From: an uncultured Myxococcales bacterium
Lineage (GTDB): Bacteria; Myxococcota_A; UBA9042; DTJE01
Direction: 5' to 3'
DNA: 64,000 bases
Assembly (NCBI GenBank): GCA_903936705.1
Contig: CAIZWN010000035.1
Location: forward strand, 1-64,000
Of this stretch, positions 19,757 through 39,345 are shown piece after piece. A program made the position numbers and the translations under genes. Positions within the stretch are counted from its first letter, which is position 1. Each line of letters begins with the position of its first letter. The notes under the pieces were generated by a model, which searched no databases, was not told where the DNA came from, and worked only from the letters and a program-made list of their open reading frames with translations.

Positions 19757-21091
19757 TCAGTAGTTGTCCCTACGACCACGCACCCGAGGCCCGTGAGCCC
19801 CGGCAAATCCCTCGTATGACCGGCTGATCAGGTGCGACTCGATCTGCCCGGCAGTATCCATCGCGACACCGACGACAATCAGCAGCGAGGTGCCACCGAA
19901 GTAGAACGGCACCGAGAAGTGCTGCTGCATGATGGTCGGCAGCACGCAGATCACGCTGATGTAGATGGCACCGCCCACGGTGATCCGAGACAGCACACGA
20001 TCGATGTAATCCGCGGTCGCCTTGCCCGCACGAATACCAGGCACAAAGCCGCCGTTCTTCTTCAGATTATCAGCCACATCTACCGGGTTGAACGTAACCG
20101 CGGTGTAGAAGAAGGCAAAGAACACGATCATACCGACGTACAGGAAGTCGTAGAATAGACCACCCGGAGTCAGCGCGTTCTGCATCCACACGACCCAGGC
20201 CGCACCTGGGAACAGGTTCGACAAGGTAGCCGGGAACATCAGAATCGACGATGCAAAGATCGGCGGAATAACGCCGGCGGTGTTGACCTTCAGCGGAAGG
20301 TGCGTGGTCTGACCGCCGTAAAGCTTCCGACCAACCACCTTCTTGGCATACTGCACCGGAATCCGTCGCTGCCCACGCTCGAAGAACACGATCGCGCCCA
20401 TCGTCGCAAGGATCAAGACGAATATCATTCCCAGCGTCAGGGGTTCCAGACGTCCACCGGCCAAGGTCGACAACTGAAAAGTCTGAACCACGGCCTCGGG
20501 CAGACGCGCCACGATGCCCGCAAAGATGATCAACGATACGCCGTTGCCGATGCCACGCTCGGTAATCGACTCGCCCAGCCACATCAGGAACATGGTTCCA
20601 GTTGTCAGCGACAGGACGGTCAGGAACTTGAACATGAACGATGACATCCGGACGACGTTCTCGGTTCCCGCCTGCGAATTCAGCGACTGCAGCCAGACGG
20701 CGATACCAATGCCCTGCACCGCGGCAAGCCCGACCGCGGCGTAGCGTGTGTACTGGTTGATCTTCCGGCGACCGGCATCGCCCTCCTTCTGGAGACGCTC
20801 CAGGGCCGGGATGACCACGGCCAGAAGCTGGAAGATGATCGACGCGCTGATGTACGGCATTACGCCAAGGGCGAAGATCGACATCTGCGAGATGGCGCCG
20901 CCCGAGAACATATCAAAGAGCCCCAAAAGGCCCGTCTGTCCGTACTTGACGTAGTTGGCCATGATCTCGCGATCGACACCCGGAACGGTCACAAAAATGC
21001 CTATCCGGTAGACCGCAAGCATGCCCAGCGTATACAGCAGCCGCTTTCGCAGCTCGGGGACCTTTCCGAGTCCTTCCAGGCTGTGGGCCAC
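19757..21091 (-). CDS. secY: Preprotein translocase subunit SecY
   Basis: A 444-residue inner-membrane channel with ten transmembrane helices. It begins [31 protein letters not shown] and contains the plug-region segment [33 protein letters not shown]. The GTG at 21091, with GGAGG upstream, gives the canonical N terminus. The longer ORF start at 21193 overlaps rplO and is not used. Confidence 0.97.
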
Positions 21092-21116
21092 GTTCAACCC
21101 TCCGACACAGGGGCGA

Positions 21117-21584
21117 TCACGCCCCGGCTTCCTCGATCTCGACAACCAGGCGCGCCGTACCGCCAGCAGCAATAATCTTCTGGCGCGCAGCATCGCTGAA
21201 CGCGTGGGCGACGACGTCCAGCTTCTTAGCCAGATCGCCCGTTCCCAGGATTTTCACGCCGTCCCCAACCTTGCGAACAAGGCCGGCGGCCTGGAGAATG
21301 CCCGGGTCCACGCGGGTTCCGTCCGCAAAAATATCAAGCGAACCGACGTTGACAACGGCGAATTCGACATGCGACATCGCCCGAAATCCACGCTTCGGCA
21401 GCCGGCGCTGCAAGGGCATCTGGCCACCCTCGAAGTACGCCGGATGACCCTTGCCCGTACGAGCTCCGGTTCCCTTGTGCCCGCGACCAGACGTCTTGCC
21501 AAGGCCGGATCCATAACCGCGTCCGACGCGCTTGCGCGTCTTCGTCGATCCTGGGATCGGCGACAGCTTGGACAGCTCCTTCAT
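21117..21584 (-). CDS. rplO: 50S ribosomal protein L15
   Basis: A 155-residue protein with the conserved N terminus ([32 protein letters not shown]) and the GFEGGQMPL-like [17 protein letters not shown] segment. Its ATG overlaps the rpsE stop (ATGA), leaving no room for rpmD (L30), which usually sits between them. Confidence 0.97.
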
Positions 21585-22084
21585 CCAACTACCTCCTGAC
21601 GGAGACCACGCTTCTCGCGAGCCTCCTCCGGCGCCATCAGCAGGCGCAGGCCGGCGATAGTGGCCCGAACGACGTTGTGCGCGTTGCGGCTGCCGACATT
21701 CTTTGCCAGCACGTCCCGCACACCCGCCGCCTCAAGGACAGCGCGCGTTGCGCCCCCTGCGATCAAGCCGGTACCAGCCGACGCGGGACGAATGATGACA
21801 AGACCGGCGCCGTAGTGGCCGACGACCTCGTGCGGAAGCGTATTACCAGCAAGCGGTACGCGAATCATGTTCTTCTTCGCGTGTTCGCTGCCCTTGCGAA
21901 TGGCCTCCGGCACTTCCTGGGCCTTACCCAGTCCATAGCCTACCAGCCCCTCGCCGTTGCCGATGACCACGAGCGCCGCGAACGAAAATCGCCGGCCGCC
22001 CTTGACCACCTTGGCCACTCTGCTCAGGTGGACGATGTGCTCGGAGAATTCAAGCTTCTCCTGACCGTGCTCTTCATGGCTCAA
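21581..22084 (-). CDS. rpsE: 30S ribosomal protein S5
   Basis: A 167-residue protein with [30 protein letters not shown] and GARVVLEAAG-like [19 protein letters not shown] motifs. The start codon is TTG at 22084, supported by GGAGGT about 6 nt upstream and by family length; no ATG is available nearby. Confidence 0.97.
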
Positions 22085-22101
22085 AACGCCACCTCCATGG
22101 G

Positions 22102-22476
22102 TCAGAACTTAAGGCCAGCCTCGCGGGCCGCATCCGCCATTGCCGCAATCCGGCCGTGGTACAGAAACCCGTTCCGGTCGAACACGACGGTCTCGACCCC
22201 GACAGCCTTGCAACGCTCGGCGATCAGTGTCCCGACCTTCTTCGCAACGTCCATCTTGCCGACGTCGGGATTCGCAGTCGCGAATTCCTTGCCCTCGGAC
22301 GTGGCAGAACACAGCGTACGGCCAGCGTCGTCATCGACTACCTGGCACGAGATATGGCGGGTACTGCGAAAGACGACCAGCCGGGGACGCGTCGCGCTCC
22401 CCTCGACCTTCTTCCGGATCCGCGCCTTCCGATTCAGCCGGGCTGCGAGCCGGCGCTCAGCGTTCCGAACTTCCAC
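22102..22476 (-). CDS. rplR: 50S ribosomal protein L18
   Basis: A 124-residue 5S rRNA-binding protein, with [20 protein letters not shown] and the C-terminal [26 protein letters not shown]. It starts with GTG at 22476 behind GGAGGG. Confidence 0.97.
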
Positions 22477-22490
22477 GTTGCCCTCCGCCG

Positions 22491-23030
22491 CTACTTCGCA
22501 CCGGCCTTGCCGGCCTTCCGCTTGATCTTCTCGCCCTGGTAGGCGACGCCCTTGCCCTTATAGGGCTCGATCTCGCGCACCGCGCGGATCTTGGCGGCGG
22601 TGTCTCCCAGGGATTCCTTGTTGATGCTCTTCAAGGTAATCATTGTCCCCTTGGCCTCGACCGTAGCAGTCACATCGGCCGGCAAAGGGAAGCTCACGGG
22701 CTTGGAATAGCCCAGGTACAAGGTCAAACCCTTGGGGTCAGCCTCGACCTTATAGCCAGTTCCCGTGATCACCAGCGTCTTCGCGAATCCCTTGCTGACG
22801 CCGTCGACCATGTTCGCGACCAGGGTGCGCATCAGGCCGTGCAGGGATGCGGCCTTGATATGCTGCGGATCCGGGTTCACGACAATCTGCGTCTTCTCGA
22901 CCGCCAGCGTCACACCCAGAAGGTCCCTGGACAAAACACCCAGCGGCCCCTTGACCGTGACGGTTGGTCCTGCCGTCTTGATCTCCACGCCGGTCGGCAC
23001 CGGAATGGGCTTCTTACCGATTCGCGACAC
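22491..23030 (-). CDS. rplF: 50S ribosomal protein L6
   Basis: A 179-residue protein beginning SRIGKKPIPVPTGVEI after a GTG at 23030 that has GGAGG 5 nt upstream. The signature EPYKGKGVAYQGEKIKRKAGKAGAK ends the protein. The in-frame TTG at 23057 would add nine non-family residues. Confidence 0.97.
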   Translation of the reverse strand: MSRIGKKPIPVPTGVEIKTAGPTVTVKGPLGVLSRDLLGVTLAVEKTQIVVNPDPQHIKAASLHGLMRTLVANMVDGVSKGFAKTLVITGTGYKVEADPKGLTLYLGYSKPVSFPLPADVTATVEAKGTMITLKSINKESLGDTAAKIRAVREIEPYKGKGVAYQGEKIKRKAGKAGAK

Positions 23031-23108
23031 GGTACCCTCCGCATTCGTCGATGCCAACGGCAGGCGCCATCGCCGTACCCCGCCGCACCGCGCCCGTTCG
23101 ACCGGGCC

Positions 23109-23504
23109 TCACCAGATCGTCAGCAGAACTTCACCGCCAATACCCAGCTTCCGAGCATCGGCGTCCGCCATCAACCCCTGAGGGGTCGAAAGGATCGCCA
23201 GGCCCAAGCCTCGCTTGACGCGTGGAATGTCCCGCTTGCCGACGTACACCCGGCGGCCCGGCTTGCTCTCGCGACGAATGCCCGCAATAGCCGCGCGTTT
23301 CGGCGCGACATACTTCAGGTAGATCTTGAGGATCCCCTGCAGTCGGTCATCCATCACCGAGTAATCCTCGATGAAGCCCTGTTCCTTGAGAATCTCGGCA
23401 ATCCGACGCTTCACGTTGGAACTGGGCATCTCCAGCGACGAGAATCCGGCCTGAATGGCGTTCCGGATCCGGGTCAGCATGTCCCCAATGGGATCGGTCG
23501 TCAT
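23109..23504 (-). CDS. rpsH: 30S ribosomal protein S8
   Basis: A 131-residue central-domain 16S rRNA-binding protein. It begins MTTDPIGDMLTRIRNAIQAG and carries the C-terminal GLGLAILSTPQGLMADADARKLGIGGEVL signature. It lies 11 nt after rpsN and 78 nt before rplF. Confidence 0.98.
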   Translation of the reverse strand: MTTDPIGDMLTRIRNAIQAGFSSLEMPSSNVKRRIAEILKEQGFIEDYSVMDDRLQGILKIYLKYVAPKRAAIAGIRRESKPGRRVYVGKRDIPRVKRGLGLAILSTPQGLMADADARKLGIGGEVLLTIW

Positions 23505-23515
23505 GACACGCTCTC

Positions 23516-23701
23516 CTACCAGCTGGCCTTGATCACGCCGGGAAGATCCCCGCGCAGCGCCGCGTTACGGAAGCAGATGCGGCACATGTTGAACTTCCGA
23601 TAATATGCATGTGCGCGCCCGCACAAGGGGCATCGCCTATAGGCGCGCACCTTGAACTTGGGCTTCCGGGCCGCCTTGATCATCAACGACGTCTTAGCCA
23701 C
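23516..23701 (-). CDS. rpsN: 30S ribosomal protein S14 (type Z, zinc-binding)
   Basis: A 61-residue short S14 with two CXXC pairs (CPLCG and CRICF), the zinc-ribbon form. It starts with GTG at 23701 behind GAGGAGG. Proteobacteria mostly use the longer zinc-free form; the short form is common in deltaproteobacterial lineages and Gram-positives. Confidence 0.97.
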
Positions 23702-23713
23702 GCCTCAACCTCC

Positions 23714-24259
23714 TCACGCCTGCTTCCGGAAGGGCATCCCCATCCCCTTCAGCAGGGCGAACGCCTCCTCGTCGGTACCGGCGCTCGTCCCGATGGTGAT
23801 GTTCATCCCCTTGTACTTCTCGACCTTGTCGTAGTCGATCTCGGGGAAGATGATCTGCTCGCGCAGGCCCAGCGTGTAATCCCCGTGGCCATCAAAGGCC
23901 TTTGTGGAGACTCCACGGAAGTCGCGCACGCGCGGAAGGGCGATGTTCAGCAGCCGATCCAAAAACTCGAACATCCGCACACCGCGCAGCGTGACGCTGC
24001 ATCCAACGGCGTTCCCCTGACGGACCTTGAAGGCCGCAATCGACTTGCGGCACTTCGTCACTACCGGCTTCTGGCCGGCGATCAGCATCATCTCGGCAAC
24101 CGAGGTCTCGATCATCTTCGGCTGATGCGTCGCTTCGCCCAGACCCATGTTCAGGGTCACCTTCAGAAGGCGCGGCACCTGAAAACGGTTCGAATAGCCG
24201 AACTGCGTCATCAGGACCGGCACCACTTCTTCCTCGTACTTCTTGCGCATTCTGGTCAT
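23714..24259 (-). CDS. rplE: 50S ribosomal protein L5
   Basis: A 181-residue 5S rRNA-binding protein. Motifs are [35 protein letters not shown]-like [22 protein letters not shown] and FPEIDYDKV...[10 protein letters not shown]. It is followed by rpsN after 12 nt. Confidence 0.98.
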
Positions 24260-24299
24260 CGTTCCTTCCCCGCTCGCGCCGGGAGGCCCTCACGGCCCC

Positions 24300-24623
24300 C
24301 TAGTCGAAGACCTCGCCTGTCCTGGCAGCCACGCGAACCTTCCGCGTCTTTCCGTCAGACTCGCGCACCTCGATATGTACACGCACCGGCTTGCCATCCT
24401 TCTTGCTGGCGAGGGCCAGAGCACACATCGGAATCAAGGCCGCCTTCTCGGTGATGCCGGCCTTAAGGTTCTTGGCCGAACGCTTCTGATGCTTCTTCAC
24501 CAGATTCAGGCCCTCAACGATGGCCCGCTTGGTCTTGACGTCCACTTCAAGAATGCGGCCCTTCGAGCCGGCATCCTTGCCACGCATAACCACGACTTCG
24601 TCGTTCTTCCGGATCTTCAGCAT
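24300..24623 (-). CDS. rplX: 50S ribosomal protein L24
   Basis: A 107-residue KOW-domain assembly initiator: [28 protein letters not shown]. Its ATG shares one base with the rplN stop (TGATG), indicating coupled translation. Confidence 0.97.
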   Translation of the reverse strand: MLKIRKNDEVVVMRGKDAGSKGRILEVDVKTKRAIVEGLNLVKKHQKRSAKNLKAGITEKAALIPMCALALASKKDGKPVRVHIEVRESDGKTRKVRVAARTGEVFD

Positions 24624-24991
24624 CAGAGCACCTCCGGGGCCAGCGACACGATCTTCATGAACCGCTTCGCACGAAGTTCGCGCGCCACCGGCCCAAAAAT
24701 ACGCGTCCCGATCGGCTCCATCGCCGGGTTGACCAGAACCCCGGCGTTTTGATCGAACCGGATGTAGGTCCCGTCAGCGCGACCCACTTCCTTCGCGGTC
24801 CGGACGATCACGACCTTGACTACGTCGCCCTTCTTGACCTTGGAACGCGGCAGCGCTTCCCTGACCGAACACACCACGATATCGCCGAGGCTGGACGACT
24901 TCCGCCCGGATCCACCAAGACATCGGATAACCTGCAACAACTTCGCGCCCGAGTTGTCTGCCGAGATCAGGTAGCTTTCCTGTTGCAACAT
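24623..24991 (-). CDS. rplN: 50S ribosomal protein L14
   Basis: A 122-residue protein with [28 protein letters not shown] and the C-terminal [28 protein letters not shown]. It is 47 nt downstream of rpsQ. Confidence 0.98.
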
Positions 24992-25038
24992 AAGTTACCT
25001 CGCCCGAAACGGGTGTCCGCAATCAACGGACCCCGACA

Positions 25039-25311
25039 TCACGCCCCGGCCTTAGCTCCAGTAACAATGCGCCACCGCTTCTTGGCGGACAACGGACGGC
25101 TCTCCTCAATAATCACGTGGTCGCCAACAGCGGCCTTCGCGTGCTCGTCGTGAGCCATGTATTTCTTCACTTCGGTAATGTACTTGTGAAAGACCGGATG
25201 CTCGAAGCGCCTGGCCACCGCGACGATCACCGACTTCGCTCCCGAGACCGAAGTGACCGTTCCCGACAAGTGTCGCTTCCGCCGGACCGTCGTGTTCAAC
25301 TGCTGCTCCAT
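25039..25311 (-). CDS. rpsQ: 30S ribosomal protein S17
   Basis: A 90-residue OB-fold protein. The start is the ATG at 25311 (MEQQLNTTVRRKRHLSGTV), with GGTGGAG just upstream. It contains the family signature VGDHVIIEESRPLSAKKRW. A gap of 93 nt separates it from rpmC, the longest gap in this part of the cluster, and no clear signal was seen in it. Confidence 0.97.
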   Translation of the reverse strand: MEQQLNTTVRRKRHLSGTVTSVSGAKSVIVAVARRFEHPVFHKYITEVKKYMAHDEHAKAAVGDHVIIEESRPLSAKKRWRIVTGAKAGA

Positions 25312-25404
25312 CGCTCCACCTCGCTTACACCCAGACCGACTCCACAACCGGCGTGAGTTCCTCCGGGAACCCATCCCTTCCGGCAGCGTGCCCGGGCGAG
25401 CCCA

Positions 25405-25608
25405 TTACACGGCCTTCAGCCGCCGGTTCTGCTCGGTCAGGATCCGCGCCAGGTTCCGCTTCGTCGCGTTGATGTCCGCCATCTTGGACATCTGGCCAGT
25501 GGCCAGCCTCATGCGGATCTTGAACAGCGACTCCCTGGCCTCGTTCTCGCGCTGCACCAGCTCCCCAGGGGTGAGTGCTCGCAGCTCCTCGGTCTTCAGC
25601 GCCTTCAT
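25405..25608 (-). CDS. rpmC: 50S ribosomal protein L29
   Basis: A 67-residue helical protein at the exit tunnel ([39 protein letters not shown]). Its ATG overlaps the rplP stop by 4 nt. Confidence 0.97.
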
Positions 25609-26021
25609 CGGATCTCCCCCCGCATCAGCACCTTCGTATGGATCGGAAGCTTGTGGGAGGCCAGGCGGAAAGCCTCGCGGGCTATCGCCTCGTCCACGCC
25701 TTCAAGTTCATACAGAACCTTGCCGGGCCGAATTACGGCCACCCACTGCTCGGGAGCTCCCTTGCCGCGACCCATGCGGGTCTCGAGGGGCTTCTTCGAG
25801 ATGGGCTTGTCCGGGAAGATCCGGATCCACACCTGGCCACCACGCTTCACATAGCGCGTCAGGGCGATACGACCGGCTTCGATCTGCCGCGCCGTCAGCC
25901 AGCCGCACTCGACCGCCTGCAGTCCGAATTCGCCGAAGGAAACTTCGGACCCCCGGTACGCGGTTCCGCGCATCCGGCCCTTCTGCTGCTTGCGGAACTT
26001 CGTTCTCTTCGGGGACAGCAT
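25605..26021 (-). CDS. rplP: 50S ribosomal protein L16
   Basis: A 138-residue protein near the A site. Motifs are [58 protein letters not shown] and the basic C terminus. It contains the arginine-rich loop near the peptidyl transferase centre. Confidence 0.98.
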
Positions 26022-26082
26022 CGCACGTCCTCCCTTTCCAGGAAGCGTCAGCCGCCGGCCAATGGCCGCCAGCCGTCGGTTC

Positions 26083-26712
26083 TCACTTCTTCAAAATATC
26101 GCCCTTGTAGATCCATGTCTTGACGCCGATGACACCATAGGTCGTCTGCGCCTGGGCGAACCCGTAGTCCAGGTCCGCGCGGATCGTATGCAAAGGCACC
26201 CGGCCCTCACGGTACTGCAGGACACGCGACATTTCCGCGCCGCCCAGCCGTCCGGAGCATCGAATCTTGATGCCCTTGGCACCAAGTTTCATGGCCTGCG
26301 TAACCGCGCGCTTGGTAGCGCGGCGGAACGACACACGACGTTCCAGCTGCTGCGCCACAGACTCGGCGACCAGCTGCGCATCCAGTTCAGCCTTGCGAAC
26401 TTCCTGGATGTAGGGCACGACTTCGAGGGACGTCAACTTCGTCAGATCGCGCTTCAGATCCTCGATGTTCTCGCCCTTGCGACCGATTGCAATGCCGGGC
26501 CGCGCCGTGAAGATGTAAACCTTCACCTTGTTGGCGGTCCGCTCGATCTGGACCGACGAGATCCCGGCAGCGCCCATCTTCTGGCGAACGCGCTCGCGGA
26601 TCTGCATATCCTCGCGGGCCCACTGACCGTAGTTCCGGTCGGCGTACCAACGGCTGTTCCACGTCTTCACGTAGGGGATCCGAAATCCCACCGGATGCGT
26701 CTTCTGGCCCAC
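26083..26712 (-). CDS. rpsC: 30S ribosomal protein S3
   Basis: A 209-residue protein at the mRNA entry channel. It starts [24 protein letters not shown] (GTG at 26712) and contains the KH domain with [18 protein letters not shown]. It lies 9 nt after rplV. Confidence 0.98.
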
Positions 26713-26721
26713 GAAGTCCTC

Positions 26722-27066
26722 CTACTCCAACTCGCCGAGCACAACCGTCACATGACTGGTGAACTTGTGAATCTTGGTCACCATGCCGCGCGCCCTGGCC
26801 AGGCCGCGCTTCAGGGCAGGCCCCTGATCCACGAAGATCTCCTTCACGAACAGGTTGTCCAGATCGAAGTTTCCAGCCTGCTTCGCCGCGTCGATGGCGG
26901 TGTTCAGCACCTTCGTCACCGGCCTGACTGCGCGGCGCGGGATGAAGGACAACACGGCATTCGCCACGTCCACGCGCTTGCCGCGAATCGCATTGGCAAC
27001 CACGCGAACCTTGCGGGGAGCCATCCGGATGTAAAGGGCTTTGGCCCTTACCACGTGCTCTTCCAT
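26722..27066 (-). CDS. rplV: 50S ribosomal protein L22
   Basis: A 114-residue exit-tunnel protein. The ATG at 27066 (MEEHVVRAKALYIRMAPRKVR) has GAGGTGGGAG upstream; a GTG at 27075 is the alternative. The C-terminal hairpin is ARARGMVTKIHKFTSHVTVVL. Confidence 0.97.
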   Translation of the reverse strand: MEEHVVRAKALYIRMAPRKVRVVANAIRGKRVDVANAVLSFIPRRAVRPVTKVLNTAIDAAKQAGNFDLDNLFVKEIFVDQGPALKRGLARARGMVTKIHKFTSHVTVVLGELE

Positions 27067-27077
27067 CGCTCCCACCT

Positions 27078-27377
27078 CTACTTGCCGCCCTTCTTGCCTT
27101 CGACCTTGCCCTTCTTGTCACCGCCCGAATGGCCGTGGAAGGTACGGGTCGGGGCGAACTCGCCCAGCTTATGGCCGACCATGTTCTCCGTCACAAAGAC
27201 GGGGATAAACTTCTTGCCGTTGTGGACGGCGAAATTAAAGCCGACCATCTCGGGCAGAATCACGGACCGACGAGACCACGTCTTTATGGTCTTCTTCTGT
27301 CCGGACCTCAGCGACCCCTCGATCTTCTCGACGAGGTGCTTGTCCAGGAACGGGCCCTTTTTCACGCTCCGCGGCAT
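27078..27377 (-). CDS. rpsS: 30S ribosomal protein S19
   Basis: A 99-residue head protein ([20 protein letters not shown], then [45 protein letters not shown]). The C-terminal tail is Gly/Lys-rich. Confidence 0.98.
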
Positions 27378-27390
27378 GAATCCCTCCGTC

Positions 27391-28215
27391 CTACTTCGAG
27401 CGCCGCTTGACGATCAGGCGGTCTGTGCTCTTGTTGTGGCGCGTCTTGTAGCCCTTTGTCGGCCTGCCCCATGGCGTCGTTGGATGACGGCCGCCAGAAG
27501 TCTTGCCTTCACCACCGCCCATCGGGTGGTCGACGGGGTTCATGACGACGCCGCGGCTCTGCGGGCGGATGCCCTTCCAGCGGTTGCGGCCCGCCTTGCC
27601 AATCGAAACGTTCTCGTGGTCCGGATTGCTGACGTCGCCAATGGTGGCACGGCATTCCTCCCGAACCTTGCGCAGCTCGCCCGAGGGCAGCCGCAGCAGC
27701 GCATAACCGGACTCCCGAGCCATCAACTGCGCCGAGCCGCCCGCCGAACGGACAAGCTGGGCACCGTGGCCAGGCTTCAATTCCACACAGTGAATCATCG
27801 TGCCCTGCGGAATCGCCCGCAGCGGCAGTTGGTTCCCCGGGCGGATCTCGGCGTGGGAAGCGGCCATCAACTGGTCGCCGACCTTGATCTCGCGAGGCGC
27901 GATGATGTAGCGCTTCTCGCCGTCCACGTAATTCAGCAGGGCGATTCTCGCACTGCGGTTCGGGTCGTACTCGATCTCGGCCACAACCGCGGGCACACCA
28001 ACCTTGTCCCGCTTGAAATCAATCGTGCGGAACAAACGCTTGTGACCGCCACCCTTGTGCCGGGAGGTAATTCGCCCGTAGCAGTTGTGGCCGACCTTCC
28101 TCGTGTTCTTCGCGATCAGGCCCTTTTCGGGACCTTCACGCGTGATCTCGGAAAAATCGTACCCTTCCGCCGAGCGCCGGCCGGCTGAAGTCGGCTTGTA
28201 CTTGATGATGCCCAT
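27391..28215 (-). CDS. rplB: 50S ribosomal protein L2
   Basis: A 274-residue protein needed for subunit association and peptidyl transfer. Motifs are [19 protein letters not shown]-like [25 protein letters not shown] and [23 protein letters not shown], with the His of the active-centre region intact. Confidence 0.98.
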
Positions 28216-28246
28216 CGTTCCCGCTCCTTCCCGGTGCCGCTTACGT

Positions 28247-28537
28247 CTACTGGGCCTCGAAGATATCGATCGTGTCGCCCGCCTTGAGCGTCACAATCGC
28301 TTTCTTCCACGACGCACGCTTGCCGACGAATCGGCCCATGCGCTTCTCCTTGCCCCGGACGATCATGGTCCGCACGTCCTCGACGTGAACCTTGAATACC
28401 TTCTCGATCGCTTCCTTGATTTCCTGGCGATCAACGATCACCGGGACCTCAAAGTGGAACGTGTTGCGCCGTTCCTTGTCGATGTTGGCCTTCTCGGTAA
28501 TGAGAGGCCGACGAACAACGTCGTACGCACTCTTCAT
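28247..28537 (-). CDS. rplW: 50S ribosomal protein L23
   Basis: A 96-residue exit-site protein and docking point for trigger factor and SRP ([25 protein letters not shown]). Its ATG overlaps the rplD stop (ATGA). Confidence 0.97.
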
Positions 28538-29154
28538 GGCTTCATCGCTCCTTCGATCGCCTCGACGGCACCCCGCGTCAGGATCACGTGGTCGTACTTG
28601 AGCACATCGAAGAGGTTAAGCCCCTTCCAGCTCAGGTACTTGATCGCCGCGAGGTTCCGGCAGGACAGGGAAAGCGACCGGTTGGTCTCGTCGATCATCA
28701 GAACCGAGGTCAATTCGAAGCGGCCGAGAAACTCGACAACCTTCTTCGTCTTGATCTCCTCGGACGTCCAGCCGTCGAGGACCAGCAGGTGACCCTCGCG
28801 AAGCCGATCGGACAACGCCGACAGCAACGCCGCCCTCTTTACCTTCTTCGGTACCTTCACGTCCCAGTCACGAGGCATCGGTCCGAAGACCACGCCGCCG
28901 CGACGATAGATGGGAGCGCGATTGTCGCCATGACGCGACCGGCCCGATCCCTTCTGCTTGATGACCTTGCGCGTCGAACCCGAAACCTCGTCGCGCTTCT
29001 TGGTCTTTACGGTGCCCTGCCGCTTCGACAGAAGCTGGGCCCTGACCACTTCGTGATAGAGGTGCGGGCGGGACTCGGCTGCGAAGACCTCGTCCGACAG
29101 CGCAATCTCGCCAACCTTGCGGCGCGAGACATCGTAGACTTCCACGTTCGGCAT
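28534..29154 (-). CDS. rplD: 50S ribosomal protein L4
   Basis: A 206-residue protein with [43 protein letters not shown] and the central [24 protein letters not shown] loop. GAGGG lies 4 nt before its ATG. It follows rpsJ after only 17 nt, where rplC would normally be. Confidence 0.97.
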
Positions 29155-29171
29155 GATTCCCTCGTCCTCGC

Positions 29172-29480
29172 TCAGGCCTTGATCTCGACATCGACGCCCG
29201 GGCTCAGGTCCAGCTTCGTCAGCGCATCCAGCGTCTGCAGGGTCGGGTCCAGGATGTCAATCAGGCGCTTGTGTGTACGGATCTCGAACTGCTCGCGACT
29301 CTTCTTATCGCAGTGCGGCGAGCGCAAGACCGTGTAGCGACTGATCTTCGTCGGCAGCGGAATCGGGCCCGCGACTTTCGCGTCCGTCTTCCGGACCGTT
29401 GCGATGATCTCGCTGACGGACTGGTCAAGGATCTTGTGATCGTATGCCTTCAGCCGGATTCGAATCCTTTGGGTCCCCAT
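29172..29480 (-). CDS. rpsJ: 30S ribosomal protein S10 / NusE
   Basis: A 102-residue head protein that also acts as the antitermination factor NusE ([54 protein letters not shown]). It begins 2 nt after the fusA stop; tuf, normally present between them, is missing. Confidence 0.98.
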
Positions 29481-29482
29481 GG

Positions 29483-31576
29483 TCAGATGCTCCTCCCCGC
29501 GTTGATCACGCGCGTCTGGACGGCCGCAGGGGCCGGCGCGTAATGCAGGAACTCCATCGTCTGAGTGCCCCGGCCCTGGCTCATGGACCGGAGGTCCGTC
29601 ACATAACCGAACATCTCGCCCAACGGCACCTCGGCGCCCACTACGTGGAGGTTGTCCTGGGCGTCGACCTTTGCCACACGTGCACGCCGCGTCGCCAGGT
29701 TCCCAAGGACATCGCCAAGATACTCGGACGGAACGATCACCTCGATCAACATGACCGGTTCGAGAATGACCGGATTGGCGCGCGCTACCAGGTCCTTCAG
29801 ACCCATGGAAGCCGCCACGCGGAACGCCAGGTCCGACGAGTCAACCTCGTGGTAGGACCCGTGCAACAACGACAACTTCACGTCCACGACCGGGAATCCA
29901 GCCAGGATGCCCAACTGGGCGGCCTCGCGGATACCGCGCTCGATCGACGGAATGTATTCACGTGGGACAACGCCGCCAACGGTCACGTCCTCGAATATCA
30001 GGCCCGAGTTTCGCGCCATCGGCTCGATGCGCAACACCACGTGCCCGTACTGTCCGTGCCCACCCGACTGCTTTATGTACTTGCTCTCGGCCTCGACGGT
30101 GCGTGTGACCGTCTCGCGGTATGAAACCTGCGGACGACCAACGCGACCGGCAACCTTGAACTCGCGCAGCAGCCGATCGACGATGATCTCTAGGTGCAAT
30201 TCGCCCATGCCGGACACAATGGTCTGGCCTGTCTCCTCGTGCACCCGGAACTTGAACGTCGGATCTTCCAAAGCCAGGCGACGCAGGGATGCAAACAGCT
30301 TTTCGCTGTCGCCCTTCGAGTCGGCCTCGAGAGCCACATCGACCACCGGATCCGGGAACCGAACGGACTCCAGACGAATCGGGTGTTCCTGCGAACACAG
30401 GGTATCGCCGGTCACAGAGACCTTGAGGCCAACCACACCGCCGATGTCACCGGCGCGCAGCTCCTTGACTTCCTCACGCTTGTTCGCGTGGATGCGAACC
30501 AGGCGGGTCGCCCGTTCCTTCTTGTCCTGCGCCGGATTCAGAACCTGCTCGCCAGCCTTCAAAACGCCCGAATAGACGCGAACGAAGGTCAACTGACCGA
30601 CGAACGGGTCGTTCATCAGCTTGAATGCCAGGCCGCAGAACGGCGCGTCATCGCTGGCCGGGCGCTCGACCTCGACTGCGTGACCATTCGACTTGTACGG
30701 TTCGACACCGACGACCGGCGGAAGGTCCGCAGGCGACGGCAGGTAATCAACGACCGCGTCCAGAAGTGCCTGGACGCCCTTGTTCTTGAATGACGATCCG
30801 CAAGCCACCGGGATGATCCCGTTCGCCAGCGTTGCCTTTCGGACCAGCATCTTCAGGACTTCGACGGTGGGTTCGATTCCAGCGAGGTAGTCTTCCATCG
30901 AGGCGTCGTCGTATTCGGCGACCGCGTCGATGAGTTCGGAGCGGGCCTTCCGGGCGGCTTCGATATAGTCCGCCGGAATCTCCCGCACCGTGTAATCCGA
31001 GCCAAGGGTATCCTTGTCCCAGACCAGGGAGCGCATCTCGATCAGATCGATGCATCCCCGGAACGACGACTCGCGACCGAGGGGGATCTGCACCGGGATG
31101 GCGTGCGCCTTAAGGCGCCCACGCATCTGTCCGACGCATCGCCAAAAATCTGCCCCGGTCCGGTCCATCTTGTTGACAAACGCAAGGCGGGGAACCTTGT
31201 ACCGATTGGCCTGACGCCAGACCGTCTCGGACTGCGGCTGAACCCCGCCGACTGCGCAGAACACTACTACTCCACCGTCCAGGACGCGCAGCGAGCGCTC
31301 GACTTCCACTGTGAAGTCGACGTGTCCAGGGGTGTCGATGATGTTGACCTGGTGGCCACGCCATTCGCATGTGGTCGCGGCAGACGTGATTGTGATGCCA
31401 CGCTCTTGTTCCTGCTCCATCCAGTCCATCTGGGTGGTGCCGGAATCGACATCGCCAATCCGATGCGAAACGCCTGTGTAGTACAGGATTCGCTCGGTGG
31501 TCGTGGTCTTACCGGCATCAATGTGGGCCATGATGCCGATATTCCTGACCTTGGCGATGTCCATGGTACGTGCCAC
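29483..31576 (-). CDS. fusA: Elongation factor G
   Basis: A 697-residue translocation GTPase with G1 [13 protein letters not shown]2/switch [15 protein letters not shown]3 DTPGHVDF and G4 NKMDRTGAD. Domain IV ([15 protein letters not shown]) and domain V follow at full length. It lies between rpsG and rpsJ as in the str operon. Confidence 0.98.
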
Positions 31577-31600
31577 TCTAGCGTTCCACCCTTCCTGAGC

Positions 31601-32071
31601 CTACCAGCGGTAATGAGCAAAAGCCTTGTTGGCTTCGGCCATGCGGTGCGTGTCGTCGCGCTTCTTGATCGCGTTTCCGCGGCCATTGAAAGCATCGATG
31701 ATTTCCGCCGACAACTTGTTCGAGAAACCCTTCTCGGAGCGACCACGGGCGTAGCTGATCAGCCAGCGGATAGCCAGTGCGGTCTTGCGCTCGGGACGAA
31801 TCTCTACGGGTACCTGGTACGTTGCGCCGCCGACGCGCCGGGACTTGACCTCGACCTGCGGCTTCACGTTCTCGAGAGCCCGCTTGAAAATCTTTAGCGG
31901 GTCCTCGCGGGTCTTCTTGGCGATCTGATCCATCGAATCGTAGAAGATGCCCTCGGATATCGACTTCTTGCCGCGGGTCATCAAGTAGTTGACGAACTTC
32001 GCGACCAGCCAGTCGTTGAACCTTGCGTCCGGGAGGATTTCCCGCTTTTCTACTACTCTGCGCCTGGGCAT
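31601..32071 (-). CDS. rpsG: 30S ribosomal protein S7
   Basis: A 156-residue head-assembly protein: [40 protein letters not shown], with [17 protein letters not shown] and the C-terminal [15 protein letters not shown]. It lies 15 nt after rpsL. Confidence 0.98.
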
Positions 32072-32086
32072 CGGATGCCTCCGTCC

Positions 32087-32470
32087 TTACTTCACGCCCT
32101 TGGGCTGCTTCGCGCCGTACTTCGAACGGCTGCGCCGCCGTGCGTCCACGCCCTTGGCATCCATCGTGCCGCGGACAATGTGGTAGCGCACGCCGGGAAG
32201 ATCCTTCACGCGTCCGCCGCGAACCAGAACCTGCGAGTGCTCGCTGAGGTTGTGGCCCTCGCCCGGAATGTACGCGATGACCTCGAAACCGTTCGTCAAG
32301 CGGACTTTAGCAACCTTCCGCATGGCCGAGTTCGGCTTCTTGGGCGTCGTCGTGTACACACGAGTGCAGACACCGCGCCGCATTGGGCACGAGGCCAATG
32401 CGGGAGACTTGGACTTGTACTTCGCGGGCGACCGCCCTTTGCGAATCAACTGGTTGACCGTCGGCATCAT
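32087..32470 (-). CDS. rpsL: 30S ribosomal protein S12
   Basis: A 127-residue decoding-centre protein ([39 protein letters not shown] with the streptomycin-relevant Lys present; [16 protein letters not shown]). Two adjacent ATG codons at 32470 and 32467 could start it; GGAG lies 4-7 nt upstream. First gene of the ribosomal cluster. Confidence 0.98.
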
Positions 32471-32930
32471 GGTCTCCGTACGGGCCCGAACCGAGATTCC
32501 ACCACCGACGAACTGGCAATCTCTGCCGGTTCGCGAGGGTGACTATTCTAGGCCGATTGAGTCTGGTGTCAAGCCGCTTTTTTCGCAGGGCACAGAACTT
32601 CGCGGGAAGGGCATGATTCTCTGCGGGCCAAACCGGGGTGTCAAGATGAATTTTCAACCTGAATCCCCAATGGTATCCGACTGGAATGATCAAGTTCAGA
32701 ACTGGCGGCCTGGCGTTCACCTGGGTTGGAGAAAACCTGATATTTCACGAAAGTCGATGAATTTGGATCGGCAGAAGAACCAATTTTTGACGTCGCCGTG
32801 ACCTGTCAACAGCCACGGTAGATCCGCTTTCCCGTCTTTCGGACCAAATTTGAGCTTGCATCCTCGCTGGTTTCTGTAAAATATGCCGACTTCCGGTTTT
32901 TTCGGAAACGGATTCGGGCAGCACGAGGTG
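32471..32930 (+). other. 460 bp intergenic region between divergent rpsL and VWA lipoprotein gene
   Basis: This stretch holds the rpsL promoter on the minus strand and probably a plus-strand promoter near 32857-32885 (TTGCAT, 15 nt, TAAAAT; poor spacing). The plus-strand gene has GAGGTG directly before its ATG at 32931. The open frames crossing it in both directions have no ribosome site or family match. No RNA gene or repeat was recognised. Confidence 0.5.
32544..32571 (-). promoter_or_regulatory. Promoter of the str-S10-spc-alpha ribosomal cluster
   Basis: TTGACA (32571-32566), a 16 nt spacer and TAGAAT (32549-32544) on the minus strand give an almost consensus sigma-70 promoter, with a leader of about 67 nt before rpsL. 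Confidence 0.75.
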
Positions 32931-35900
32931 ATGAATATGAAGACCATGCGGCTAATGATGTTGGGACTGGCTGTTTCCATGATGATAGGACCGCTTGGAA
33001 CAGGCTGTTCGTGCAAGAGCGGCCAGAGGTCGGCCGACTTGGACCTGCTGGCGACTCCGTCCACGCTGGTCTTTGGAACGGTGGAGCTGGGGTCCAGCCT
33101 GCCGCTGTCGGTTGAGTTGAAGCACATCGGCACGGAAGGCACGGTCGACATCTCCAGCATGGTCCTTGACGACCTGACCAACGAGTTCGTTGTCAAGTTG
33201 CCCGAGAAGATGACACTGGCCGTCGGTGAATCGGTATGGGTGACCGTGACTTACACGCCGACAGGCGCCTCGGCCAGCGACGGAGCCCTTTTGATCAACC
33301 ACAACGTGGCCAGCCGCGGCAACGTCACCCGAATCCCGATTACGGCGAACGGTCGCGTAGGCGATCTGCTGGTGGATCCCAATCCGATTGATTTCGAGCA
33401 GGTTGAATCGGGCAAGGACTACATGCTTGATGTAATGGTGCAGAACTACGGTTCCGCGCCGATCACGATCTCGTCAATGAACCTGCGTCTTGACGGCAGC
33501 ACCGACTTCACTATCGAAGCGTACCCAGAAGGCAAGACGTTCCCGTTCGAACTGGCCCCGACCGAGAAGGTCTTCCTTGTCATGAAATACGCGCCGACGA
33601 ACGGAGGCAACGACGAATCGAAACTGGTAGTCGAGGGCGATTCGGAAGGACAGCGCCGATCCTGGTCGTTCGATGTGATCGGCGAGGAGATGGGACCGCT
33701 GCTCGAAGCAATGCCCGGCGAACTGCACTTCGGGGCGGTCAAACTGCACGAAGAGAAAGTATTGTTGCTGGAGATCAAGAACAACGGGAACGCCGACCTG
33801 ATTATCGGAGCCGGTGGTTTTACGCTGTGGCCGCCAAACACGGTCTACAATATCGTTGTCAAGAACCAGCCGACCGAAGAACTGCGAATTGCACCTGACA
33901 GCGAACCGGTCCAGTTCCAGATTGCGTGGACCCCTGGTGAAGCCACCCCTGATGATGGCAACCCATTGTGTTCATTGATGATCGCCAGTAACGATCCGAT
34001 GAAACAAACACTGATTCCTGTGTTTGGAACCGTTGACGCCCCCAAGTTGATCGTTATTCCCGACTCGATCGACATGGGATTCGGCGCCCTGATGACCCCG
34101 GTCGAGCGGCAGGTGACGCTGCAGAACGCCGGATCGGGAACCCTGCACATCACGAAACTGGAAGTCGTTGACGCGTCCGACACCCAGTACGGGGTCGAGT
34201 TCGCGATCAGTTCGATCGCCTGCACCACCGATTCGGGCGACGCCTGCACAATCGCCGGCAACACATCCACCCCGGTGAAGGTAATCTTCACCAACCGCGG
34301 TCCTGCCACCGGCGAGGTCACGGCCAAGCTGCGGATCACATCGAACTATGCCGACAACGAAATCATGGATGTGCCGATAATAGTTCGGCGTTCGGGCGCG
34401 CCTGTCTGCACCGTGGCTTTGTCGCCACCTGGCATCAGTTTCGGCACCGTCGCGATTGGATGGCCGGCCGAAAAATTCATGAGCCTGGTCAACGTCGGTA
34501 CCGGTCCTTGTACCTTTATTGCCGCCAAGTTAACCGACTGCTCCGCTGGATTCATGGGCGGCACGACCTGCAACACACCGATGGTCGGTGGCCAATCGCA
34601 GATCTTCCAGTTAAGGGGCGTACCTGCAACCAACACTGAACTGGCGGCCGGATCGACAACGACGATGACGGTTCGCTTCAACCCGCCGCCGGCCAGCCCG
34701 CTGTTCGGCCTTCTGAACCAGTATTTCGGGTTGCTGGGCGTCCAGGTGAAGGCTCCTGGGTCGGCGGTGACCACGACGCTGCCCAAGGCCAACGGCACGA
34801 CCTACCTGTCAAACGTCCAGGGGGCATCGGGCCTTGCGAAGATCAGCGTTCTTCCCGGAGAACTGAAGTTCGGCGTGACCACCATCGGCTGCTTCAGCAA
34901 GACCTACAAGGTCTGCATCTACAACTCGGGCAATGCGCCGCTGATGGTGAACGACATCTCGCTGAAGGGTTGTTCGCCCGAGTTCAAGGTCAAGAACATT
35001 CCGAAACTGCCGATGGCAGTTCCGAACGGCGCGCCGAAGTGTATCGAGGCTGTGTACGCGCCTCAGGACGAGGGCCCGGACACCTGCTCGATGCAGATCG
35101 CCGCAACCGACAGTTCGTCGCCGAACGTGCTTGTGAAATTGTCTGGTTCGGGGACCTACGAGACTCACCAGACGGACGAATTCACGCAGGTCACAGGCCA
35201 GGAAGTAGACATCCTGTGGATCATCGACGACTCGGGCTCGATGTGCGAGGAGCAGGATCGCCTGAACCAGTCTTTCAGTGATTTCATTGCGAACGCGAAC
35301 GTGTGGAAGAACGACTACCACATGGGTTCAATCAGCGTGAACGTAGTCGATGATAAGGTGATGGGGCGTCTGAACCGCGGTAAGACATCGATTACTCCGC
35401 GCTACATGACCAAGACCAACGGAGGCTCGTTTGCCCAGTTGACCGACTACGGCTGCGACGGCGGTTCCGATGCCCAGGAATCCGGACTGCAGGCGGCCCA
35501 GACGGCCTTGTCGGCCCCCCTGGCCACCGACACGGGCATCTCGTGCTCGTCGCCTGCCGACTGCACCTCGGACCCGAACATCTGTCCCGACCCTGCCAAA
35601 TGCGCCTATTCCTGCGTCGAGGGCAAGTGCGGCGGGTTCAATGCCGGGTTCCTTCGCGAGAACGCACAACTGGAACTGGTTGTACTGTCGGACGAAGAGG
35701 ACCAGTCGCCTGGCGGGCTGCCCTTCTACATCGACTTCCTGAAGAACATCAAGGGCTGGTACAACGTCGAGATGATGCACTTCAACGCCATCGTGGGCAT
35801 ATACGGAGTGCCTAACACGCCTTCCGGCGGCAGTTCATCTGAGACCGGCGATTGCGTGTCCTCGGACGGTGGCACCGCCTGGAACGGCGATCGCTATCTC

Positions 35901-36191
35901 CAGGTCGCATCGGATACCAAGGGCCAGGCCGGTTCGATTTGCGAATCCTCTTACAGCAACATCATGCAAAAGATTGGCGACGTCACATTCCGTCCGAAGA
36001 TCCAGTTCTTCCTGACGCGCCTTGCGGATCCATCGACCGTCACCGTCAAGGTGAACGGGACATTGTGCAGTTCGGGTTACCGCTATGACGCGCCATCCAA
36101 TTCGGTCATCTTCGATACCGCGGGATCGTGCATGCCTGGACCTGGCGACAAGATTTTGATCGACTACGAAACGCTGTGTCTTACCTCGTAG
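32931..36191 (+). CDS. Large lipoprotein: choice-of-anchor-D repeats plus von Willebrand A domain (paralogue 1)
   Basis: A 1086-residue predicted lipoprotein with an ATG at 32931 behind GAGGTG and lipobox GTGC. It has several choice-of-anchor-D/ASPM-type beta domains with recurring (I)DFGxV..G or LxFGxV starts (for example ATPSTLVFGTVELGSS, PNPIDFEQVESGKD, PGISFGTVAIGW, PGELKFGVTTIGC). A von Willebrand A domain begins near residue 760 with the metal-binding DDSGSM and a later LSDEEDQSP. A Cys-rich insert (CSSPADCTSDPNICPDPAKCAYSCVEGKC) lies inside it. The protein is probably exposed at the cell surface, with a binding or adhesive role inferred from domains only. It is closely related to the protein at 39502-42501, which lies in the opposite orientation, and has one extra N-terminal beta domain. 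Confidence 0.85.
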   Translation: MNMKTMRLMMLGLAVSMMIGPLGTGCSCKSGQRSADLDLLATPSTLVFGTVELGSSLPLSVELKHIGTEGTVDISSMVLDDLTNEFVVKLPEKMTLAVGESVWVTVTYTPTGASASDGALLINHNVASRGNVTRIPITANGRVGDLLVDPNPIDFEQVESGKDYMLDVMVQNYGSAPITISSMNLRLDGSTDFTIEAYPEGKTFPFELAPTEKVFLVMKYAPTNGGNDESKLVVEGDSEGQRRSWSFDVIGEEMGPLLEAMPGELHFGAVKLHEEKVLLLEIKNNGNADLIIGAGGFTLWPPNTVYNIVVKNQPTEELRIAPDSEPVQFQIAWTPGEATPDDGNPLCSLMIASNDPMKQTLIPVFGTVDAPKLIVIPDSIDMGFGALMTPVERQVTLQNAGSGTLHITKLEVVDASDTQYGVEFAISSIACTTDSGDACTIAGNTSTPVKVIFTNRGPATGEVTAKLRITSNYADNEIMDVPIIVRRSGAPVCTVALSPPGISFGTVAIGWPAEKFMSLVNVGTGPCTFIAAKLTDCSAGFMGGTTCNTPMVGGQSQIFQLRGVPATNTELAAGSTTTMTVRFNPPPASPLFGLLNQYFGLLGVQVKAPGSAVTTTLPKANGTTYLSNVQGASGLAKISVLPGELKFGVTTIGCFSKTYKVCIYNSGNAPLMVNDISLKGCSPEFKVKNIPKLPMAVPNGAPKCIEAVYAPQDEGPDTCSMQIAATDSSSPNVLVKLSGSGTYETHQTDEFTQVTGQEVDILWIIDDSGSMCEEQDRLNQSFSDFIANANVWKNDYHMGSISVNVVDDKVMGRLNRGKTSITPRYMTKTNGGSFAQLTDYGCDGGSDAQESGLQAAQTALSAPLATDTGISCSSPADCTSDPNICPDPAKCAYSCVEGKCGGFNAGFLRENAQLELVVLSDEEDQSPGGLPFYIDFLKNIKGWYNVEMMHFNAIVGIYGVPNTPSGGSSSETGDCVSSDGGTAWNGDRYLQVASDTKGQAGSICESSYSNIMQKIGDVTFRPKIQFFLTRLADPSTVTVKVNGTLCSSGYRYDAPSNSVIFDTAGSCMPGPGDKILIDYETLCLTS

Positions 36192-36233
36192 TTCGGGACT
36201 ATTCTTTCTGCTGATCAATTATTGGAGTTACGC

Positions 36234-36887
36234 ATGCGCTGGGAAATCCTTGTTCCGGTGGCACTCCTCTTAGGCGGCACGGCATCCGCCCATCCCGGAA
36301 CTCTTGGTAGGGACGGCTGCCATGCTTGCCGGCACAATTGCGAAAAGCTGGGCCTGGTTGCCGGTGCAAGGCATTGCCACCCCGAGCGCAACGAACAATC
36401 GATGACGGCTGCGACGGCGGCAACCGGCCACAAAGGTTCTGCGGACAAGGCGGAAACCAGGAACGTAGCGCCCGAGCCTGTCCAGGAACGCATTGCAGCA
36501 TTCGTCGTAAGGGTCACCGACGGCGACACGTTTGTCGTCAAGACCTCCGAGGGCGAAGACAAGATTCGAATCCTGGGCATCGACTGCCCCGAGTCTTCCC
36601 ACAATGCAAAGTGCGAGCGCGACGGGAAGCAGGGCCGGCCAAGTTGCGACGCGCAGGTACCTCGAGGCGTGGATGCAAAGCGGGTGGCCCAGAATCTGGT
36701 CGAGGGGAAGAGCGTGACGCTGGAAGGCCCGTTCTCGCGCGATCCCTTCGGACGACGACTGGCCTACGTCCGCCTGGCCGACGGACGCGACTATGGACTG
36801 TTGATGGTGCGCGAGGGCCGATGCGAGGACTTCGGCTGGAAGTATCCGCATCCCAGGTCGGCGGCCTACCGCAGCCCCACGCCCTGA
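36234..36887 (+). CDS. Secreted thermonuclease-like protein with N-terminal YHYH domain
   Basis: A 217-residue protein. The ATG at 36234 has GGAG 7 nt upstream and starts a signal peptide (cleavage near TASAHP). Residues 22-52 form a YHYH-type Cys/His motif (GRDGCHACRHNCEKLGL...RHCHPE), followed by a linker. A staphylococcal-nuclease (SNase) domain occupies about 85-210, with VTDGDTFVV, RILGIDCPES, RDPFGRRLAYV and a GREDYG-like GRDYGLLMVREG stretch. The catalytic Arg and Asp/Glu positions appear present. It probably degrades nucleic acid in the periplasm or outside the cell. It follows the VWA lipoprotein gene by 42 nt and runs convergently into comEC, ending 13 nt from it. Confidence 0.85.
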   Translation: MRWEILVPVALLLGGTASAHPGTLGRDGCHACRHNCEKLGLVAGARHCHPERNEQSMTAATAATGHKGSADKAETRNVAPEPVQERIAAFVVRVTDGDTFVVKTSEGEDKIRILGIDCPESSHNAKCERDGKQGRPSCDAQVPRGVDAKRVAQNLVEGKSVTLEGPFSRDPFGRRLAYVRLADGRDYGLLMVREGRCEDFGWKYPHPRSAAYRSPTP

Positions 36888-36900
36888 ATCTGTTCACTGG

Positions 36901-39345
36901 TCATGGCTTTGAAGGCACCGCAGGCTTGAATCGAGGCCCCGGGGTCCTGGTTCCACCTACGGTGATCGACCCATCCGATTCCACCACCGCCGTCACATCG
37001 CCGACCTCGGTGGTCGCCAACAGGTTCGCCCCAACCGCATGGACCCTGCCGGCAGTCCGGGGCGAAAGTTCGCGCTGGCGCCTGGTTCGATAGCCCGACA
37101 CCACTACAACCTCCGGGCGCACGGCTTCAAGGAACGCGGGACTGGACGCCCCCGGGCTGCCGTGATGACCCAGCTTCAGAACGTCTGCGTGCAGGTCGAT
37201 TCCGGAGTCCACCAGCGCCTCTTCGCCATCAATTTCCAGGTCGCCGGTCATCAGAATTGAACGGCCTTTCCAGGCCAGACGAAAAACCAGCGAGGCCGCG
37301 TTGCCTTTTGCTGGCACAAATGGCGCCGGCGAAAGTACCGGCGATGGATCTACGCACCCGGGCATCGGGTCCACGCCCTCGATTGCACACCTTACCGGAA
37401 TGCCCATTTCGCGCGCCCCTGCCAGCATCCCGGCAAGAGGTTCCACGTTCATGGCTGGGCAGGACGGGATTACCTCACCGATGGACAGGGCCCGCAGCAA
37501 AAAAGGGACTCCTCCGACATGGTCCTCGTCAGCGTGAGTCAGCACCAGCCCGTCCAGCCGGTCGATTCCGGCGGCGCGCAGTTTTGCGACCAGACCTGAC
37601 GGGCGTTCGGCGATTCGTCCCTCACCTGCATCCACCAGAAAAGTGCGGCCAGTCGGACAGCGAACCAGGACGGCATCCCCTTTTCCAACGTCCAGAAAGG
37701 TGATCACCAGCGACTCGTCAGACGGTCGGGGCGTTCCTGGAAGCGCCAGTGCAAGTGCCAGCCCGGCCAGGGCCGCCAAAATTGTCGAGCCCGGTCGCGG
37801 CCTGGCGAGGAAGGCAATGGCCGCGAAGGACAGGGACAGTACCGCGGCAAACACCAGAAGATGCGGCGCGACCAGATTTGGCAGCGCCCGCGCGGCCACA
37901 CGCTGGGTCCACAGGAAGGCATCAAGAATCCACCCAACCGGCGGCGCGGCCAGGGACATCAGACCCGGCGCGACGCCAGCCACGACAACCAGTCCCAGGG
38001 CGGCCGGCATCACGATCAACGTTGTCGCGGGAATGGCGAACAGGTTGGCCAGCGGACCGGCTGGGCCAGTCTGACGAAACGCCAGCAGCGTCAGCGGAGT
38101 CGTGGCCAGGGTCGCCGCAATCGACGACGCGAGGGCGATCAACATAACCCTCGCAGTCCTGACAGGCCACGCAAGATCCCCGGCAGGAACTTCCCGCCAC
38201 CGCACCGGCAGCATCATGGCTACAAGGGGCGGCCCCAGGAATGCCAGGCCAAGGATCGCGCCGTACGACAGAAGAAACGAGATCGACATGGCATCACAGG
38301 GCCAGACAATCAGGGACGCAAGACCTGTCGTGGCGACTGCCGTCTCGACCGCCTGCGGCCGTCCCAGAAGCGCTCCGAAGGCAGCCATTGTGAACATGCC
38401 GGCCGATCGCACTGCCGGCGGCGGCGAGTTCGCCAACAGCGACACTCCCCACGCTGCCAGGATCGCGGCGCCCATGTGCCAGGCCACAAGGTTCACTGAC
38501 GGCTGCACGCGAACCAGGATCGGCCCCAGCAGGCGCACTACCACCAGGCCCACGAGAAAGGCCGCGGCGGCCACGTGCAGACCAGACACGCTAAGCACGT
38601 GGGCAGTGCCAAGGGCTGCAAGATCGGCTCGCGTACCGGCATCAATCCCGTTCCCCTCGCCCAGCAGCACCGCCAGGGCAAAGTCCGCAGCCGGACCGTC
38701 CAGGTGCTGACGCAGGCGCGTGGCCAGAAGCGACCTGACCCTGTCCATCGACCGCTCGTCAGGCAGGCCGGGCCCAGCCAAAACAACGACATCGGACTCG
38801 GCCACAATGGCCAGGCTCGGCCTGGGCGGGCCTCGCGGCCATGCCGGCGAGACGGCATCGGTTGGACGAGACGGGGGCAGCCACCAGGCGCGCAAACCGA
38901 CCACTCGCCCCTCCGGCAGGTCCAGAAACCCCGAAAACCGGATGCGAACCGCACCATCGTCAGGCGGCAGTGCCATGCCCGACGGGTCCCACATCTGCAG
39001 AAGCTGCGCGTCGGCCTGCGTCGCCATCCGATGCCGCTGGACGACTCGAGTGATCAGAACCTCGGCCCGGATGGCCTCGGAAGGCGGCGGCATCCCGGCA
39101 CCTGGCGCCGGTGCGGCAACATCGATGCCCCCCCGCAAGGCCCCCAGTACAACCATGGCCCACAGAGGCGCGAAGACCCTTGGCGGACGCAATCGGCAGG
39201 CAAACAGAACAAGCCTGGTTATGAAAGCGACGCATGCTATTTGGGCAATGGCCAGCACCGGCCCGAACAGCCCGGACAACAGTATCCCGCCCAGCAAGGC
39301 CAGGAACGCAGACAAGGCAAGGGGTACTGGAGGTCGCCGATTCAC
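36901..39345 (-). CDS. comEC: DNA uptake channel protein ComEC/Rec2
   Basis: An 814-residue inner-membrane protein. It has N-terminal helices, an OB-like DUF4131 region (about 90-190) and the competence core with GEGNGIDAGTRADLAALGTAHVLSVSGLHVA. Many transmembrane helices follow (about 260-520). A C-terminal metallo-beta-lactamase domain (about 545-780) carries FLDVGKGDAVLV, THADEDHVGG, MTGDLE and LKLGHHGS. ComEC carries single-stranded DNA across the inner membrane during transformation, and the C-terminal domain is thought to degrade the other strand. The GTG at 39345 is the annotated start; no clear ribosome site is seen, so it is uncertain. Confidence 0.93.
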   Translation of the reverse strand: MNRRPPVPLALSAFLALLGGILLSGLFGPVLAIAQIACVAFITRLVLFACRLRPPRVFAPLWAMVVLGALRGGIDVAAPAPGAGMPPPSEAIRAEVLITRVVQRHRMATQADAQLLQMWDPSGMALPPDDGAVRIRFSGFLDLPEGRVVGLRAWWLPPSRPTDAVSPAWPRGPPRPSLAIVAESDVVVLAGPGLPDERSMDRVRSLLATRLRQHLDGPAADFALAVLLGEGNGIDAGTRADLAALGTAHVLSVSGLHVAAAAFLVGLVVVRLLGPILVRVQPSVNLVAWHMGAAILAAWGVSLLANSPPPAVRSAGMFTMAAFGALLGRPQAVETAVATTGLASLIVWPCDAMSISFLLSYGAILGLAFLGPPLVAMMLPVRWREVPAGDLAWPVRTARVMLIALASSIAATLATTPLTLLAFRQTGPAGPLANLFAIPATTLIVMPAALGLVVVAGVAPGLMSLAAPPVGWILDAFLWTQRVAARALPNLVAPHLLVFAAVLSLSFAAIAFLARPRPGSTILAALAGLALALALPGTPRPSDESLVITFLDVGKGDAVLVRCPTGRTFLVDAGEGRIAERPSGLVAKLRAAGIDRLDGLVLTHADEDHVGGVPFLLRALSIGEVIPSCPAMNVEPLAGMLAGAREMGIPVRCAIEGVDPMPGCVDPSPVLSPAPFVPAKGNAASLVFRLAWKGRSILMTGDLEIDGEEALVDSGIDLHADVLKLGHHGSPGASSPAFLEAVRPEVVVVSGYRTRRQRELSPRTAGRVHAVGANLLATTEVGDVTAVVESDGSITVGGTRTPGPRFKPAVPSKP

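Follow-up and report, generated by a model that had tools for sequence, protein, structure and literature searches.

The ribosomal protein gene rplC lies outside the S10 operon in almost all sampled Myxococcota

The rplC gene, which encodes ribosomal protein L3, is missing from the S10 operon in a 64,000-nucleotide stretch of DNA from an uncultured Myxococcales bacterium (contig CAIZWN010000035.1, positions 1 to 64,000; the window). This is neither a loss of the gene nor an assembly error, but a real and ancient rearrangement that runs through the whole of the sampled phylum Myxococcota. The order rpsJ-rplC-rplD is among the most stable in bacteria, with rplC usually found between the S10 and L4 genes. 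L3 is essential for assembly of the 50S subunit, and coordinated dosage is the presumed reason why the genes of the S10 operon stay together. We consider it highly probable that rplC was relocated once, long ago, to a site where it has its own promoter, that it has since descended vertically and that the methyltransferase gene rlmE was lost later on.

In the window the stop codon of rpsJ (TGA, 29172-29174, reverse strand) is separated from the start codon of rplD (ATG, 29154-29152) by 17 nucleotides. This spacer reads GCGAGGACGAGGGAATC on the coding strand, contains a GAGGG ribosome site and leaves rplC absent. An earlier note on this sequence had described the missing gene and the junction in just these terms, and Pfam identifies the products of both flanking genes as expected (Table 1). 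From rpsJ onwards, rplD, rplW, rplB and the later genes follow in the standard order in the list of open reading frames (ORFs), and none of the ORFs listed for positions 20000-40000 of the window is L3-like. The gap is identical in two congeners (L082 and L089) that were assembled separately, which rules out an artefact of assembly at this one site.

The genome to which the window belongs (G000) is a draft of 4.85 Mb in 84 contigs, estimated to be 96% complete. The earlier note had proposed a search of the whole genome for rplC. This search returned a sole L3 match, a complete gene on another contig (C84), which supports relocation. The product is a full-length bacterial L3 of 219 amino acids. 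Residues 5-208 match positions 2-202 of the equivalog model TIGR03625 (L3_bact) with 239.2 bits, against a cut-off of 142.9, and residues 4-212 align to a solved ribosomal L3 (10px_1E) with an E-value of 7.8e-53. The alignment to solved L3 takes in the conserved loop close to the peptidyl transferase centre, and the GSIGNR-PGRV-KG-KM-G stretch is kept. In this genome rplC has thus moved, is single-copy and is apparently intact, which disfavours the gene loss that the note had listed as an option. Its upstream neighbour, on the same strand, encodes an FmdB-family zinc-ribbon protein, and dapF lies downstream in convergent orientation. Among congeneric loci rplC is found near the same neighbours, with dapF in L032 (the locus of this genome) and L033, and an fmdB-type gene in L032 and L034.

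The displacement of rplC is found across the phylum; Myxococcus and the class Myxococcia were not identified among the genomes covered. Wherever both genes were found in 53 relatives, rplC and rplD are on different contigs, and the S10 and L4 genes are neighbours. In 79 representatives of 60 families rplC is beside rplD in a single genome, G059. We read the rpsJ-rplD junction directly at 100 Myxococcota loci from about 95 genomes, and all are without rplC. The gaps range from -26 to 293 nucleotides, which is too short to leave room for it. Six closed or near-closed genomes place rplC 1.7-6.6 Mb from rplD. The L3 of one genome, G088, is 211 amino acids long. Among 80 named L3 loci, 68 have the L4 gene, the S10 gene or both adjoining (63 have both) and 12 have neither. 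The titles of these 12 refer to Myxococcota, Myxococcales, Deltaproteobacteria or an unclassified proteobacterium, and rplC is canonical in the 63 named loci from other phyla. The earlier note's preference for a real rearrangement was right, given the intact gene elsewhere and the same junction in relatives.

In one genome (G072, locus L210) the two genes share a contig and a strand, with rplC about 13 kb downstream of rplD and probably close to where the block of ribosomal genes ends. This is perhaps a separate and more local move.

The moved gene most likely has its own vegetative sigma-70 promoter. All 12 genomes of the window's family carry an invariant TTGAC-17-TAnnnT upstream of rplC in a leader whose mean identity is only 45%, and this promoter is the sole conserved block in the alignment of the 12 leaders. 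Within 180 nucleotides upstream the same motif is present at 42 of the 110 loci with a relocated rplC (a few genomes being counted twice), where 0.2 would be expected from shuffling. Neither rplD (0/100) nor rpsJ (0/84) has it upstream in the same phylum, and in other phyla it is rare upstream of canonical rplC (2/67). It is this distribution, frequent at relocated rplC and rare or absent elsewhere, that makes a dedicated promoter the most likely reading. No ribosomal-protein leader was found near rplC with Rfam, and the Rfam scan of the window gave four tRNAs only.

A tree built from 97 L3 proteins brings together 73 of the 74 whose genes are relocated, and the remaining one (G020) falls just outside. 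Constraining all 74 to one clade raised the log-likelihood by 48 over the free search (approximately unbiased test, p-AU 0.93), which makes a single early move of the gene, with vertical inheritance from then on, the most likely course. Families within this clade group much as they do in a concatenated tree of S10, L4, L23 and L2.

G059 is the only Myxococcota representative with the canonical order. Its L3 is divergent, carries an insertion and falls among the outgroups, and adding it to the constrained clade brings a smaller gain, of 13.8. Its S10, L4, L23 and L2, on the other hand, put it within the phylum, next to families whose rplC has moved. We therefore tentatively take G059 for a later return, a replacement or a chimeric bin rather than for the ancestral state. 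A second apparent counter-example (L129), which has a canonical rplC and is labelled Myxococcota by NCBI, was rejected because each of its five proteins S10, L4, L23, L2 and L3 clusters with Syntrophaceae.

The commonest neighbour of moved rplC is a gene for an rlmE/rrmJ-type methyltransferase, found directly downstream on the same strand. The best family for these proteins is TIGR00438 (146-157 bits, under the very high cut-off of that model), and they also match Pfam FtsJ. A census of 78 genomes gave a strong match in 53 and none strong in 25. The gene is directly 3' of rplC in 37 of the 53, with 38-423 nucleotides between the hidden Markov model matches, and is elsewhere in 16. In this census no strong rlmE match was found in the window's genome or in any tested member of its class. 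The pair is accordingly absent from this genome, where the gene downstream of rplC is the convergent dapF; rlmE was probably lost later on the lineage leading to the class. Moved rplC is found in at least three local contexts (rlmE, dapF/fmdB and FHA-OMP/guaB). Two of the three deep groups in the concatenated tree contain the rplC-rlmE pair, which makes the site upstream of rlmE the most plausible candidate for where rplC first landed.

RlmE, also known as RrmJ or FtsJ, is the 2'-O-methyltransferase of U2552 in 23S rRNA. It acts on the A-loop at a late stage of 50S assembly, and Escherichia coli grows 2-4 fold more slowly when it is lost (PMC11194073), so the pairing with rplC makes biological sense and may reflect a functional link. 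It is conceivable, though we hold the idea only tentatively, that the Myxococcota ancestor moved L3 into a two-gene 50S-assembly unit, in which an early assembly protein and a late A-loop methyltransferase were co-produced. If so, the large clade that went on to lose RlmE, with the window's class and apparently Bradymonadaceae among its members, would provide a natural experiment on the link between L3 and RlmE. We know of no rplC-rlmE gene pair elsewhere, and none came up in the searches.

Taken together, these observations suggest the following history. In the ancestor of the sampled Myxococcota rplC would have been excised from the S10 operon, joining rpsJ to rplD, and re-inserted at a distant chromosomal site, the most likely one being immediately upstream of rlmE. 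At that site it would have come under its own sigma-70 promoter and then been inherited vertically. On the lineage of the window's class the loss of rlmE would have left rplC alone between the fmdB-type gene and the convergent dapF. L3 would now be made from its own transcript, and the str-S10 transcript would no longer include it.

Several points weigh against this history. The phylum is not monophyletic in the concatenated tree, deep branches are weak both in that tree and in the L3 tree, and the promoter of rplC is predicted from a sequence match. Furthermore, one deep group (f16, f20, f23, f26, f29, f33, f35, f47 and f53) has rlmE, yet its rplC is away from it, and this makes the ancestral place of rplC uncertain. 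The split of the phylum leaves room for several independent relocations in different groups of Myxococcota, as does the variety of local contexts. We regard independent moves as unlikely, since the rlmE context is common to two of the three deep groups and the ancestral order is seen in only one family representative, whose L3 looks foreign.

A further alternative, also raised by the earlier note, is that the original rplC was lost and a laterally acquired foreign L3 took over. The weak deep branches of the L3 tree and the outgroup position of the L3 of G059 would fit such a replacement, and a single acquisition before the radiation of the phylum is compatible with the trees. Against it, uniting the 74 relocated L3 in one clade costs no likelihood, the families inside that clade largely follow the other ribosomal proteins and no donor lineage stands out. 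We therefore judge replacement improbable. The remaining option in the note, an assembly or binning error that dropped rplC at the junction and took the C84 copy from something else, has a negligible chance of being correct, for although the assembly is a draft in many contigs, the same junction is present in those roughly 95 separately assembled genomes, closed ones included, the L3 on C84 clusters with its counterparts from the same family and the congeners share its neighbours.

Table 1. Positions of the features discussed; coordinates are those of the window unless a locus, contig or genome is named.
Feature	Position	Strand	Basis or remark
rpsJ-rplD junction, usual position of rplC	29155..29171	-	Sequence reading; congeners L082, L089
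rpsJ (S10), 5' neighbour of missing rplC	29172..29480	-	ORF; Pfam PF00338 Ribosomal_S10, 126 bits
rplD (L4), 3' neighbour of missing rplC	28534..29154	-	ORF; Pfam PF00573 Ribosomal_L4, 211.5 bits
rplW (L23), standard order	28247..28537	-	ORF; also query in relatives
rplB (L2), standard order	27391..28215	-	ORF; also in concatenated tree
fusA (EF-G), directly 5' of rpsJ	29483..31576	-	ORF
rplC (L3), outside the window	G000 contig C84:41815-42474 = L032:9316-9975	-	Genome search
Predicted rplC promoter in G000, TTGACT-17-TACCAT	L032:10079-10051	-	-35 and -10 elements fit sigma-70
Promoter-like TTGACA-16-TAGAAT upstream of rpsL, candidate str-S10 promoter	32545..32572	-	Consensus scan, 11/12; putative function
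Second promoter-like site, str-S10 transcript	32616-32644		Consensus scan
Canonical rpsJ-rplC-rplD of G059	L208:7831-9557		Only such Myxococcota representative
rplC vs rplD, G196	4.92 vs 9.06 Mb		
rplC vs rplD, G340	9.40 vs 3.46 Mb		
rplC vs rplD, G174	7.45 vs 4.99 Mb		
rplC vs rplD, G058	1.96 vs 0.29 Mb		
rplC vs rplD, G121	0.47 vs 3.97 Mb		
rplC vs rplD, G356	2.62 vs 9.24 Mb		

Other features of the window were seen in passing. The tuf gene is absent between fusA and rpsJ (29480-29483). In many relatives the contig ends about 500 nucleotides upstream of rplD, which fits a duplicated tuf just 5' of rpsJ there. The gene for L30, rpmD, is also absent from its usual site between rpsE and rplO, which overlap at 21581-21584. 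L30 is absent from some bacteria; a search of the window's genome gave no match, whereas a control search of 14 genomes was positive in 13. The window also encodes a pair of long paralogous proteins, predicted to be secreted, of 1102 and 1006 amino acids at 32883-36191 (forward strand) and 39502-42522 (reverse strand). Near-identical stretches of these paralogues lie in opposite orientation on either side of a ComEC-like gene (36901-39345, reverse strand).

We found no published account of rplC relocation in the open-access literature on myxobacteria, the S10 operon and gene order. Three features appear to be undescribed: the removal of rplC from the operon across the phylum, the rplC-rlmE pair and the separate promoter of rplC. 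A phylum in which an essential member of the S10 operon has long been transcribed alone would mean that the operon constraint is breakable, and the relocated gene offers a test of how the dosage of L3 is matched to that of other 50S proteins. Its displacement can also serve as a simple marker of Myxococcota genomes. Pipelines that rely on S10-operon synteny to pick out ribosomal proteins will miss L3 in these genomes.

In comparison with the canonical S10 operon (rpsJ-rplC-rplD-rplW-rplB and so on), the rest of the gene order in the window is alike, with rpsJ first and rplD following. It is unlike the canonical operon in that rplC lies outside, being carried on another contig and preceded by a promoter motif of its own. 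RlmE, known from 50S assembly, is encoded by the gene most often found downstream of moved rplC, and the window's own class is without it. Relocation of genes and breaks in gene clusters are known phenomena. The present case resembles known breaks in an otherwise very stable operon cluster, but differs in that a single gene from within the S10 operon has moved out across a phylum.
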